DNA of 42,736 nucleotides from Moraxellaceae bacterium (lineage in GTDB: Bacteria; Pseudomonadota; Gammaproteobacteria; Burkholderiales; Rhodocyclaceae). The stretch is taken from assembly GCA_031119205.1 (NCBI GenBank), contig JAVHYF010000022.1, positions 12,632-55,367 of the forward strand. The letters are read 5' to 3'. Below, piece by piece: positions 7,392 through 22,345 of the stretch (the stretch's first letter is position 1; every line of letters begins with the position of its first letter). A program made the position numbers and the translations under genes. Under the pieces are notes generated by a model. The model was not told the origin of the DNA. It saw nothing but the letters and a program-made list of their open reading frames with translations, and did not search any database.

Positions 7392-9788
7392 TCAGGCGCC
7401 GCTGACACCCGTCGGTTTCACCTTCGGCGCCAGCACCCCGCCCTTGCGCGCACGCTTGCCGCGACAGGCTTCCAGTGCCACGCCCTTGACCACTACTTCG
7501 GTCTCCTTGCCACCACGACCGGCCCCGAAGACCTTCACGGCATCAGTGGGCGGGCAGCACACGCCGACCAGCTCTTCTTTCTCGTCCAGGCCCATCAGGA
7601 TCATGCCGCGGCCACGCGGCATCACCTTCAACTCGGCACGCGGGAAGTACAGCAGGCGCCCGTTACCGGACACGGTGGCAATCCACTGGCCCTCGGCACG
7701 GGCCGGGGCCAGCACCGTCTCCTTGTCCTCCATGGTCATGAAGGCCTTGCCGGCGCGCTGGCGGGTCACCAGCTCGGAGAGCTTGGTGATGAAACCGTAG
7801 CTGCCGCTGTTGGCAAACAGCCAGTCGCTGTCCGGGTCGGTACTCAACGCCTGGGCGATACGCGCACCGCTCTGCAGTTCGATCAGCGTGGTGATCGGCA
7901 CACCGTCGCCACGCCCACCCGGCAGATCGGATACCCGCACGGAATAGGCGCGACCCATGGTGTCGATCAGCACCAGCGGCCAGGCCGTGCGCGACTCCGC
8001 TACCAGGAAGGGGCTGTCACCGCCCTTGTAGCTCAGGCTCATCGGGTCAATGCCGTGCCCCTGACGCGCGCGCACCCAGCCGTTCTTCGACAGGATGACC
8101 GTCACCGGCTCGTCCAGCACCACGGCTTCCACCGCGGCAACCGGCGTGGCGGCTTCGATCAGCGTGCGGCGGTCGTCGCCATGCTTCTTGGTGTCCTCGG
8201 CAATTTCCTTGAGGATCAGCTTCGTCATCGCATTGCGGTTCTCGAGCAGCTCCACCAGCCCGGTGCGCTCGTCGCGCAGGGTGGCCAGCTCCTTCTCGAT
8301 GGCGATGTATTCCAGCTTGGCCAGCTGGCGCAGGCGGATTTCGAGGATGTCCTCGGCCTGAGTCTCGGTGAGCCCGAAGCGTGCGATCAGCTCGGCCTTC
8401 GGCTCGTCGGCCTCGCGGATCACCTTGATGACTTCGTCGATGTGCAGCCAGGCGATCTGGCGGCCTTCGAGGATATGGATACGGCGATCCACCTGACCCA
8501 GGCGGTGGCGGGTTCGACGCTCCACCGTGTCGAAGCGATAGCTGATCCATTCGCTGATCAGCGCGCGCAGGCCCTTCTGCCCCGGCCGACCATCACGGCC
8601 CACCACGGTGAAGTTCACCGACACGGAGGACTCAAGGCTGGTGTGCGCCAGCAGCACACGCATCAGCTCGTCCGGCTCCTGCGTGCGGGTCTTCGGCTCG
8701 AACACCAGGCGCACTGGCGCCTTGTCGGACGACTCGTCGCGGGCGGCGTCCAGCACGCCCAGCACCAGCGCCTTGTTGTTCTTCTCGTCCTGCGAGATTT
8801 CCTTCTTGCCGGCCTTCGGCTGCGGGTTGGTCACCGCCTCGATTTCCGACAGCACCTTGGCCGCCGACACGCCATGCGGCAGCTCGTCGATGATCACGCG
8901 CCAGGCACCACGCGCCAGTTGCTCGATGCGCCAGCGCGCACGCACGCGCAGGCTGCCGCGGCCACCGTCGTAGGCTTCGCGGATCGCCGCGGCGGGCGAG
9001 ATGATCTGGCCACCGCCGGGGAAGTCCGGGCCGGGCAGCAGGGCCATCACTTCGTCCAGCGAGGCGCTCGGCTTCTTGATCAGCAGCGTGGCGGCCGCAG
9101 CCACCTCGCGCAGGTTGTGCGGCGGGCATTCGGTCGCCATGCCCACGGCGATGCCGGATGCACCGTTCAACAACAGCATCGGCAGACGTGCCGGGAAGAG
9201 CTTTGGCTCCTCGAAGGCGCCGTCGTAGTTGGGCACGAAGTCCACCGTGCCCATGTCGATCTCGGACAGCAGCAGCTCGGCGATCGGCGTCAGGCGCATT
9301 TCGGTGTAGCGCATCGCCGCCGCACCGTCACCGTCGCGCGAACCGAAGTTGCCCTGACCATCGATCAGCGGGTAACGCAGCGAGAAGTCCTGCGCCAGGC
9401 GCACCGCGGCGTCGTACACCGACTGGTCGCCGTGCGGGTGCAACTTACCGATGACGTCGCCCACCACACGGGCGCTCTTCACCGGCTTGGCGCCCGGCAC
9501 CAGGCGCATCTCGTGCATCGCGTACAGGATGCGGCGCTGTACCGGCTTCAAGCCGTCCTCGACCTGCGGCAGCGCGCGGCCGCGCACCACGCTCATGGCG
9601 TAGGCCAGGTAGGCGCGCTCGGCAAAGGCGGCGATCGGCAGATGATCGTCGGGCAGTTCCTGCAGGCTGGGCGGAGCTGGCGGCGCGGGCGGCGGCGCCT
9701 CGGCCACGACGGCAGCTACGGGCAGGCTCTGGTCTTCGAACAGGTCGGGACTGTCGGCGTCGGGCTCGCCGGGGAGTTCAGGGTTCAT
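7392..9788 (-). CDS. parC: DNA topoisomerase IV subunit A
   Basis: Breakage-reunion subunit of topoisomerase IV, which decatenates daughter chromosomes. I choose the ATG at 9788 (798 aa); a TTG nine codons upstream is a poor alternative. The first 45 residues are an acidic then proline/alanine-rich tail that is probably disordered. The winged-helix/tower core follows, with catalytic Tyr161 in AAMRYTEM. The quinolone-region motif reads [11 protein letters not shown], with Gln122 where E. coli ParC has the Ser80 hot spot and Asp126 where it has Glu84. The C-terminal third carries the short ParC-type beta-propeller repeats. It is not GyrA: the long GyrA C-terminal domain is absent. The partner parE is not next to it in this window. 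Confidence 0.93.
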
Positions 9789-9921
9789 TCGTGTCGGTGC
9801 AAGGCAGAGGAGCAATCAGGCGGCCATGCATGGAGAACTGCGGCGCACGGCCGAGGCGGATTCTCGCACGAGGCCGGGCCACGCGGGCAGTCAGCGCCCG
9901 TCAGGAATCCGTAAGGAGTTG

Positions 9922-9951
9922 TTGACGTTGTCAGACAACAGGGCCTATAGT
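9922..9951 (+). promoter_or_regulatory. Candidate sigma-70 promoter driving the intergenic small RNA
   Basis: TTGACG (9922-9927) and TATAGT (9946-9951) are good -35 and -10 matches separated by 18 bp. Transcription would start near 9958. No protein-coding gene follows on this strand; the next signal is the terminator at 10121-10150. The spacer holds a palindrome described separately. Confidence 0.65.
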
Positions 9952-10025
9952 CCGGCTCATAGAGCGCTGAAAAACAAGGAAAATCTATTCTTTTGACCGA
10001 TCTGACAACCAATTGATCAGACAAC
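9928..10025. promoter_or_regulatory. Operator-like TTGTCAGACAA palindrome and related repeats
   Basis: TTGTCAGACAA (9928-9938) is a perfect odd palindrome that exactly fills part of the promoter spacer. Related half-sites are TCTGACAAC (10001-10009) and TCAGACAAC (10017-10025), set 16 bp apart. The shape resembles operators of FadR-type GntR regulators (TTGTCnGACAA). A protein bound at the first site would block RNA polymerase, so repression is the natural reading. No GntR gene lies in the window. The two downstream copies would also be present in the transcript. Confidence 0.5.
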
Positions 10026-10150
10026 TTCGATTTTCAGTGCCGCCCGGATTCCGGCCCCCACTGCCGGTCACGATGTAGTACCCAGTGGTAGTAGTTCGTA
10101 GTTTCTGTGTTGCCTCCTTTAAGCCCGGTGCCTTGGCACCGGGCTTTTTT
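9958..10150 (+). ncRNA. Candidate intergenic small RNA, about 190 nt
   Basis: This stretch has no plausible reading frame (its only ATG is followed at once by TAG), yet it lies between a good promoter and a strong intrinsic terminator on the same strand. Predicted folding by eye: stem 1 pairs GCGCTGAAAA (9964-9973) with TTTTCAGTGC (10031-10040), including one G-U pair, around a large loop. Stem 2 is CCGG/CCGG (10044-10054). Stem 3 pairs CACTG..GGT (10059-10068) with ACC-CAGTG (10080-10087). An unpaired CCTCCTTT (10113-10120), complementary to ribosome-binding sites, sits directly before the terminator hairpin. These are hallmarks of a base-pairing regulatory RNA. It does not resemble 6S, tmRNA, RNase P or SRP RNA. 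A Shine-Dalgarno-blocking trans-acting RNA is my inference. Confidence 0.6.
10121..10150 (+). terminator. Strong plus-strand intrinsic terminator of the small RNA
   Basis: AAGCCCGGTGCC (10121-10132) pairs over 12 bp with GGCACCGGGCTT (10135-10146), followed by a T-run to 10150. On the minus strand the hairpin is followed by AAAGG, so it is a poor terminator for modC. It therefore argues for a transcript arriving from the left. Confidence 0.85.
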
Positions 10151-11238
10151 CATGCGGCAAGGGCAACACTCTTCACCTGGGCGATGACCGCCATGCCAGC
10201 CGCGAGGCCGAGCTGGTCGCGGGAGCGACGGGTGATGCGGGCGAGCAAGGGCGTGCCGCCGTCGGCTTCCAGCCGCAGCAGCACCCTGTCCGGCCCCTCC
10301 TCCTGCATGCTCAGGACGCGCGCCGGCAACAGGTTGGCGATGCTGCTGTCGCTGGCCGGGCTGAGTGCCACGCTGACGTCGCGCGCCAGCACGCGTGCGC
10401 GCACATGCCCTCCCACCGCGATGTCCACACGGGTCACCCACAGATGGCCGCCAGCGAAATCCAGGCGAGACAGGTGGTAGGCCCCGTCATGCAGGCCTAC
10501 CACTGCCTCGATGAGCACGCCGTTCTCCTCGCCCAGCGGCAACAAATCGCCCGTCTCGTTCAGGACGCGCGCCGTCGGGCCGCTAGCAACGACCCGGCCG
10601 GCGTCCAGCACCACGGTGTGGTCGGCCAGCCTCGCCACTTCGTCGATGGCATGGCTTACATACAGCACCGGGATGGACAGTTCGGCATGCAGGCGTTGCA
10701 GGTACGGCAGGATGGCCGCACGGCTGGCGAGGTCCAGCGCCGACAGTGGCTCGTCCATCAACAACAGCCGCGGACTGGCCAGCAGGGCACGGCCGATAGC
10801 GACGCGCTGACGCTCGCCACCGGACAGGCCTTCCGGACGGCGGTCGATCAAGGCGGACAGGCCCAGCCATTGCACCGCCTGGGCCATCTCCACGCGGCGC
10901 TCGGCAGCAGCGACCCGGCGCATGCCGTATTCCAGGTTGTCGCGCACGGACAGGTGCGGGAACAGGCTGGCCTCCTGGAACACGTAACCCAGCGGGCGAC
11001 GATGGGTCGGCAGGCGGACACCGCGCGCGTCATCCTGCCAGGCCTCGTCTCCGACCTGTACACGCACGCCCTGCGCCGCCTGCAGGCCCGCCACGACGCG
11101 CAGGCAACTCGTCTTGCCACTGCCGGAGCGCCCGAACAAAGCCGTGATGCCGCGTCCGGGCAGCACGAGGTCCACCTGCATCGAGAAACCCGGATGCTGC
11201 AGGGAAAACGCAATACGGACGCTGCCGTCAGAGGACAC
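10150..11238 (-). CDS. modC: Molybdate ABC transporter ATP-binding protein
   Basis: ATPase that powers molybdate uptake through ModB. I take the GTG at 11238 (362 aa), preceded by GGGAAG and overlapping the modB stop by 11 bases; the ATG at 11259 is the alternative. Walker A is GRSGSGKTS at about 36-44, the Q-loop lies in YVFQEASLF, the ABC signature is [10 protein letters not shown], and Walker B is [12 protein letters not shown]. The C-terminal part (about 225-362) is a regulatory region with a TOBE/MOP molybdate-binding domain, the usual ModC layout. Last gene of modE-modA-modB-modC. Confidence 0.94.
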
Positions 11239-22278: not shown

Positions 22279-22345
22279 AGAGGCGAGATTCTAGGGGAAC
22301 TTGCCCGCTTTCGTCAAACGCTGCGCTGCAAGAAGTGCAAAGAAA

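Follow-up and report, generated by a model that had tools for sequence, protein, structure and literature searches.

The 361 bases between the start of parC (9788) and the stop codon of modC (10150) raise the question of whether they contain a small RNA gene and, if so, what controls it. The window, meaning the whole 42.7-kb stretch of DNA that was analysed, lies on contig C59 of a 4.6 Mb genome with a completeness of 96%. The nearest relatives of its ParC protein were found in Uliginosibacterium, Dactylopiibacterium and Rhodocyclales MAGs (identity of about 79–84%), and the host was therefore taken to be a betaproteobacterium of Rhodocyclales. The local genes modE, modA, modB, modC and parC are located on the minus strand throughout and were identified by NCBIfam profiles above their cut-offs, modE by two domain models only. 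The features of the locus are as follows:

7392–9788, minus strand: parC, neighbouring gene (TIGR01062 above cut-off)
9922–9951, plus strand: sigma-70-type promoter TTGACG-18-TATAGT (10 of 12 consensus bases)
9927–9939, no strand: perfect palindrome GTTGTC-A-GACAAC in the promoter spacer, an operator of the GntR/FCD type (shared core)
9957–10151, plus strand: predicted small RNA of about 193 nt, its start inferred from the -10 (promoter, terminator, fold z of -3.3)
9964–10040, plus strand: 5' domain closed by the long-range stem 9964–9973/10031–10040 (10 pairs, z of -3.0)
9999–10025, no strand: two direct half-site repeats GATCTGACAAC / GATCAGACAAC, a possible auxiliary operator (repeat family D1/D2)
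10113–10120, plus strand: CCUCCUUU, an anti-Shine-Dalgarno-like single-stranded stretch (unpaired probability 0.97–1.0)
10121–10150, plus strand: intrinsic terminator with an 11-bp stem, a 4-nt loop and a T-run (hairpin 10121–10146, T-run 10145–10150)
10150–11220, minus strand: modC, neighbouring gene, start codon provisional (TIGR02142 above cut-off)

A first-pass annotation, made from the sequence alone, had proposed here an undescribed small RNA gene with a TTGACG/TATAGT promoter and an 18-bp spacer, a 12-bp terminator with a T-run, a 10-bp long-range stem and no usable open frame. A scan for promoters with at least 10 of 12 consensus bases and a spacer of 16–18 found only two in the whole window on both strands, namely the claimed one at 9922–9951 (+) and another at 22317–22288 (-). 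Three clustered tRNA genes (22278–21940) begin about 10 bases downstream of the latter. At a looser threshold of 9/12, shuffled sequences contained 0.2 sites per 1.5 kb. The terminator is likewise present about 190 nt from the promoter on the same strand; its 11 pairs with a 4-nt loop can also be read as a perfect inverted repeat of 12+12 with 2 nt between. The T-run comprises six T, the last of which lies inside the modC stop codon (10150–10152, minus strand). Only two places on the plus strand of the window, this one included, passed a filter of at least 8 pairs, at least 5 G-C pairs and at least 5 T in 8. In register on a strand without a gene, the promoter and terminator stand out clearly from the background. 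As had been stated, the terminator serves no other gene in its direction, both neighbours (modC and parC) being encoded on the minus strand.

Of the frames with a start inside the RNA, two (115 and 131 codons) extend into modC antisense, and all others have between 1 and 26 codons. Reading of the upstream bases by eye revealed no well-placed Shine-Dalgarno sequence before any frame inside the RNA; the nearest similar element is an AAGGA located 12 bases ahead of the TTG that opens a frame of 7 codons at 9993. The predicted RNA has a G+C content of 49% versus 64% in the window. Folding of the whole RNA was better than that of its shuffles (z of -3.3, 0/200 as good), and this signal resides in the 5' domain (0/300 shuffles as good), where the long-range stem consists of nine Watson-Crick pairs and one G-U pair. 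The RNA body without the terminator gave a z of -1.8 (17/300 shuffles as good), and the opposite strand folds at the level of chance (z of -0.2). The sequence elements of two further stem-loops that had been claimed are present, but these middle folds are no better than chance (z of -0.8, 60/300 shuffles as good). The stretch CCUCCUUU immediately precedes the terminator and is predicted to be unpaired, in agreement with its description as exposed; the occurrence of this 8-mer by itself is not unusual (one in the window versus 0.46 expected). The observation of a promoter, a terminator, stems, an exposed stretch and a lack of ORFs was thus confirmed.

The earlier reading had missed the palindrome GTTGTCAGACAAC located between the -35 and -10 elements. 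The 13-mer GTTGTCNGACAAC has no other exact copy in the genome, and with one mismatch allowed it was rarer than the reversed control (16 vs 23). Its core, TTGTCWGACAA at 9928–9938, occurs four times in the genome and the reversed control does not occur at all, with 0.6 occurrences expected at a G+C content of 64% and 2.2 at 50%. Assuming independent bases, the probability that the 11-mer core falls within an 18-nt spacer by chance is about 1e-6 at 64% GC and 4e-6 at 50% GC. In addition, the half sites GATCTGACAAC and GATCAGACAAC are found about 70–90 bases downstream of GTTGTCAGACAAC; the predicted fold of the RNA places them in a small hairpin, and a role as an auxiliary operator is possible.

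The same palindrome, TTGTCWGACAA, is bound by two published GntR repressors: LhgR, which acts on lhgO and has the footprinted site TTGTCTGACAA (PMC8206213), and AlkR, which acts on alkB2 and whose protected sequence ATTGTCAGACAAT extends over the -10 regions of that gene (PMC12042122). A study of the LysR-type regulator CrgA also contains the word, again at alkB2 (PMC6422896), and therefore the operator word alone names neither the regulator nor the ligand. The operators of AlkR and LhgR govern protein genes, whereas the candidate transcript is apparently non-coding. Their systems concern alkanes or 2-hydroxyglutarate, while the neighbours of the present operator point to a galacturonate/pectin regulon.

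These neighbours were read for 35 TTGTCWGACAA sites of the genus, comprising the four of the own genome and 31 others (8 genomes). The other three sites of the own genome are located before uxaB, before a gene for a Gfo/Idh oxidoreductase and between genes for an MFS transporter and an EarP-like protein, the last named by reading. The uxaB site lies 12 bases upstream of the gene, between kdgK and uxaB-uxaA. The UxaB protein was classified as a tagaturonate reductase (NCBIfam, 604 bits vs a cut-off of 359). The KdgK protein is below the equivalog cut-off (353 vs 400) and the altronate-dehydratase-like protein (UxaA) reached 360 vs 731 for galactarate dehydratase; in both proteins the Pfam domain is above its cut-off. 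By gene, 7 of the 35 sites are clearly connected with hexuronate or pectin, with examples in the own genome, G011, G074, G122 and G199. In G011 the operator also stands before uxaB in the same arrangement, by sequence reading, but about 105 bases upstream of the gene. Other genus sites were found 21 bases upstream of an oligogalacturonate lyase gene (PF14583), 262 bases upstream of a GH28 polygalacturonase gene and about 240 bases upstream of the gene for Edd, which is cut by the locus end and scores below the cut-off. Two more are located 63 and about 400 bases upstream of genes for MFS proteins of the galactonate transporter family, both of which score below the model cut-off. Apart from the five MFS and three MATE-like transporter sites described below, the remaining sites have mixed or ambiguous neighbours. 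A looser pattern, TTGTCNGACAA with any middle base, was not clearly commoner than its reversed control in the 8 genomes (48 vs 38 places). Judging by the genes that adjoin the operator sites, the inducer is suggested to be galacturonate or a product of it.

The locus thus combines its own promoter, an intrinsic terminator, a lack of ORFs and a predicted accessible pairing stretch, as is characteristic of genes for trans-acting small RNAs, with an operator at the promoter that recurs at galacturonate genes of the own genome and its relatives, as in a galacturonate/pectin GntR regulon. An operator in the spacer of a strong promoter, about 190 non-coding bases and a strong terminator used by no other gene are most simply read as an sRNA gene under a galacturonate repressor. 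We consider it probable that the stand-alone small RNA gene is real and new, and we favour, with some reserve, its assignment to the galacturonate/pectin regulon as a GntR-repressed gene whose product would act in trans at ribosome-binding sites. For what is likely an sRNA gene, this place in the regulon would be the new and testable point.

From what is read directly in the DNA, namely the promoter, the operator word, the terminator, the lack of ORFs and the operator common to galacturonate genes, we infer the transcription of the RNA, its repressor and inducer, its antisense action in trans and its targets as follows. A GntR-family repressor of the FCD type would bind GTTGTCAGACAAC between the -35 and -10 elements and block RNA polymerase. 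Once a sugar-acid signal had released the repressor, transcription would start near 9958 and end in the terminator (10146–10150), giving an RNA of about 193 nt that the folded 5' domain and the terminator would protect. Target mRNAs whose ribosome-binding sites are purine-rich would pair with its accessible UUGCCUCCUUU stretch, and their translation would be lowered during growth on pectin products. More tentatively, the RNA may be a lineage-specific, sugar-acid-induced anti-Shine-Dalgarno RNA under a core-promoter GntR operator that retunes many mRNAs during growth on plant cell-wall sugars; this broader role is possible, though we lean slightly against it. If the assignment is true, an RNA arm with a clear inducer would be added to the galacturonate/pectin regulon in Rhodocyclales, and the locus would be an example of a species-specific small RNA that a single operator joins to an old regulon. 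Even if the promoter alone proves real, a transcription unit with predicted induction by galacturonate would be left. The candidate does not represent a new class of RNA.

The first-pass annotation had proposed conservation across related genomes as a check, and the outcome was negative. A blastn search of 198 other family genomes revealed no homologue; the two matches of 28–29 bases covered only the terminator. A loose search of 41 genomes gave, among the matches listed besides the own locus, only scattered pieces of 15–43 bases, and no homologue was found in plasmids and phages. A covariance model built from the single sequence was then used for 61 genomes (60 relatives and the own genome), and no homologue was detected in the relatives: the own locus scored 250.4 bits, while weak matches, none above 30.3 bits and the lowest E-value being 1.9e-6, were obtained in 6 of the 60 relatives and at two further places of the own genome. 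Note that searches over 40 genomes were run with stricter filters, which lose weak matches. When seven matched loci were searched again, the seven alignments listed (5 loci) matched the terminator hairpin and skipped nearly all of the body. The matches of L256 and L257 comprise the hairpin and some bases just 5' of it, and L260 and L261 scored 13.8 bits by the covariance model.

The gap itself is not kept either. Three genus loci that were read upstream of parC have other neighbours, and the modC-parC adjacency was absent from 80 parC loci with flanks of at most 5 kb, some of them ended by contig ends; only 2 of the 80 had any distant ABC ATPase match. All 8 genomes of the genus sample are distant (ParC 79–84% identical), and strains or sister species may carry the RNA. 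Relative to the genomes searched, the sequence comparison indicates an RNA that is lineage-specific and young, or fast evolving. An undescribed sRNA gene is still the best reading of the locus and is strengthened by the spacer operator, but no conservation was seen across the searched species.

A typical pairing of the exposed CCUCC with ribosome-binding sites had also been proposed. The stretch is accessible, as described above, but genomic sites complementary to AAAGGAGGCAAC, searched as complementary 12-mers with one mismatch allowed, were not enriched (7, including the own locus, vs 8 for the reversed pattern). Because CCUCCUUU would fit Shine-Dalgarno sequences in general, it does not allow targets to be called. 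Among the six other complementary places, one overlaps a clear early coding region, that of a tssB-like gene (by reading). This gene of type VI secretion, on the minus strand of L265 (G000:C15) at about 1500, has 10 contiguous bases complementary to UGUGUUGCCU within its first codons, with a duplex energy of -21.4 kcal/mol. The match may be due to chance, and the gene is not claimed as a target.

The missing homologue, the absence of the modC-parC adjacency from the 80 parC loci and the lack of enrichment of complementary sites would all agree with a real operator-controlled transcript without function in trans, either recently born or decaying, for example the promoter and terminator of a lost regulon gene. 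Such an origin is unlikely, although far from negligible: none of 300 shuffles matches the fold of the 5' domain, the promoter, operator and terminator are all intact, and the accessible CCUCCUUU stands right before the terminator.

Another function would require nothing in trans. The unit could insulate or interfere, with transcription from the candidate promoter, antisense to the leader between modC and parC, opposing modABC read-through into parC. Any transcript reading through from modC to parC would be complementary to the RNA over its full length, and modC lacks a good terminator of its own here because the hairpin, read on the minus strand, is followed by only two T. In addition, a weaker minus-strand promoter-like site at 10008 (9/12, 15-bp spacer) could start a parC transcript. 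However, there is no obvious sense in linking galacturonate to parC or to molybdate uptake, and we regard this role as improbable.

A chance assembly of promoter-like and terminator-like sequences without any transcript would also leave no homologues, but it is very improbable given the shuffled promoter background cited above for 9/12 matches, the presence of only two 10/12 promoters in the window, the other one standing before tRNAs, and the low probability of the operator coincidence.

The first-pass annotation had recognised no known RNA family, and this is consistent with the Rfam searches. At the gathering score only three tRNAs were found in the whole window, and all 11 matches of a permissive Rfam 15 search of positions 9850–10200 were below the cut-off. 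The best of them was RF02278 (Betaproteobacteria toxic sRNA). The candidate is not a member of this family, and the idea of a divergent member of the S17/NcS27 kind is hardly credible: although the match includes UGCCUCC before a GCCCGG terminator, it reaches only 28.2 bits against a gathering score of 50, and the family consensus UGUCUCC and the middle hairpin with a second CUCC are not found, 23 model positions of that middle being replaced by one base. In addition, one member above the cut-off is present in all 8 genus genomes. Five of the seven genus genomes besides the own one have further matches of 27–28 bits, and 11 of 14 control genomes also gave matches that stay under the cut-off. 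The true RF02278 gene of the own genome is located at G000:C76:13579-13644 (+) (L235:1501-1566, 56.7 bits).

The candidate sRNA gene of the galacturonate regulon was further compared with described systems. NcS27 is an RNA of the same kind as bdhR1 of Burkholderia. According to the literature (PMC11722255, PMC10987360), bdhR1 belongs to RF02278, and the long form of S17 from Bordetella has about 190 nt and an intrinsic terminator preceded by a single-stranded stretch rich in C and U, like the candidate. In the same papers, pairing of the S17/bdhR1 type is expected to disrupt ribosome binding and is tied to transport and carbon metabolism (PMC11722255, PMC10987360). By analogy, the candidate may act like S17 or NcS27, by blocking ribosome-binding sites. 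It differs from S17, bdhR1 and NcS27 in its score below the RF02278 cut-off, the absence of the conserved middle hairpin, the sugar-acid operator held by its promoter and the lack of a copy in the other species searched.

A pectin repressor that controls an RNA gene is known from soft-rot enterobacteria, where the RNA rsmB is repressed by KdgR, a regulator of the IclR family and not of the GntR family. The rsmB RNA sequesters the protein RsmA, and nothing in the candidate suggests protein sequestration of this type. In one paper, KdgR is named as a pectin repressor and grouped with LysR-type regulators, and the repressor of rsmB is HexA, not KdgR (PMC7814964). The sense and antisense RNAs derived from E. 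coli uxuR are tied to hexuronate metabolism like the candidate (PMC10016265); they arise inside the regulator gene, whereas the candidate lies between genes as a unit of its own, under an operator of its own. A literature search revealed no paper joining Uliginosibacterium with a small RNA. For galacturonate, GntR and small RNA regulons, the papers retrieved concerned FNR and the RNAs inside E. coli uxuR, and among the matches listed there was no title on a hexuronate-controlled intergenic RNA.

An RNA-like unit under the same operator was observed in G011 (L165, G011:C8, minus strand, about 1515–1310; operator G011:C8:647014-647038). It comprises about 200 nt with an 11-bp terminator and is flanked by genes that were named, by reading, as msrA and a permease gene, and its spacing from the operator to the -10 element equals that of the own locus within one base. 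Its fold gave a z of -3.2 (1/200 shuffles as good). No similarity to the own RNA beyond chance was found (132/500 shuffles as good in local and 32/500 in global alignment). The permease gene begins about 60 bases past the terminator, and a leader or attenuator reading is therefore equally possible. Judged from its sequence, this locus could be a parallel of unproven homology, either an sRNA gene or a permease leader. In related species this operator may have come to control RNA genes that are not related to the present one, with the minus-strand unit at G011:C8:647014-647038 as a candidate. An operator with a terminator at such a distance was found at 3 of the 35 sites, namely the own locus and the minus strands of L165 and L170. 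The L170 unit is better explained by a leader of rimO or by the reverse side of an exuT-like promoter.

Among the genus sites, TTGTCWGACAA directly precedes what appears to be the same MFS transporter gene in five genomes (L117, L164, L173, L185 and L188), the identification being based on Pfam for L117 and on reading for the other four. In three genomes (L166, L179 and L190), it directly precedes a MATE-like gene (by reading). These MFS and MATE-like transporters may be unrecognised parts of the regulon. Across the family, the operator together with the -10 word was found in 33 of 395 genomes, and most of the 30 family loci that were read look unrelated (a transporter set, a selenocysteine-tRNA-like context and others). 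Outside the genus, L220 (G350) has the operator and the -10 word at position 1501 before a mannonate-dehydratase-like start (by reading), which suggests that the hexuronate operator may be more widely common to the family. Finally, on the minus strand of L175 (G199:C135), downstream of 1505, TTGTCWGACAA is followed seven bases on by the -10 element GATAAT. By reading, the frame behind this operator has the ribosome-binding site AGGAG and would encode a small hydrophobic protein (about 35 aa), which may be under galacturonate control.
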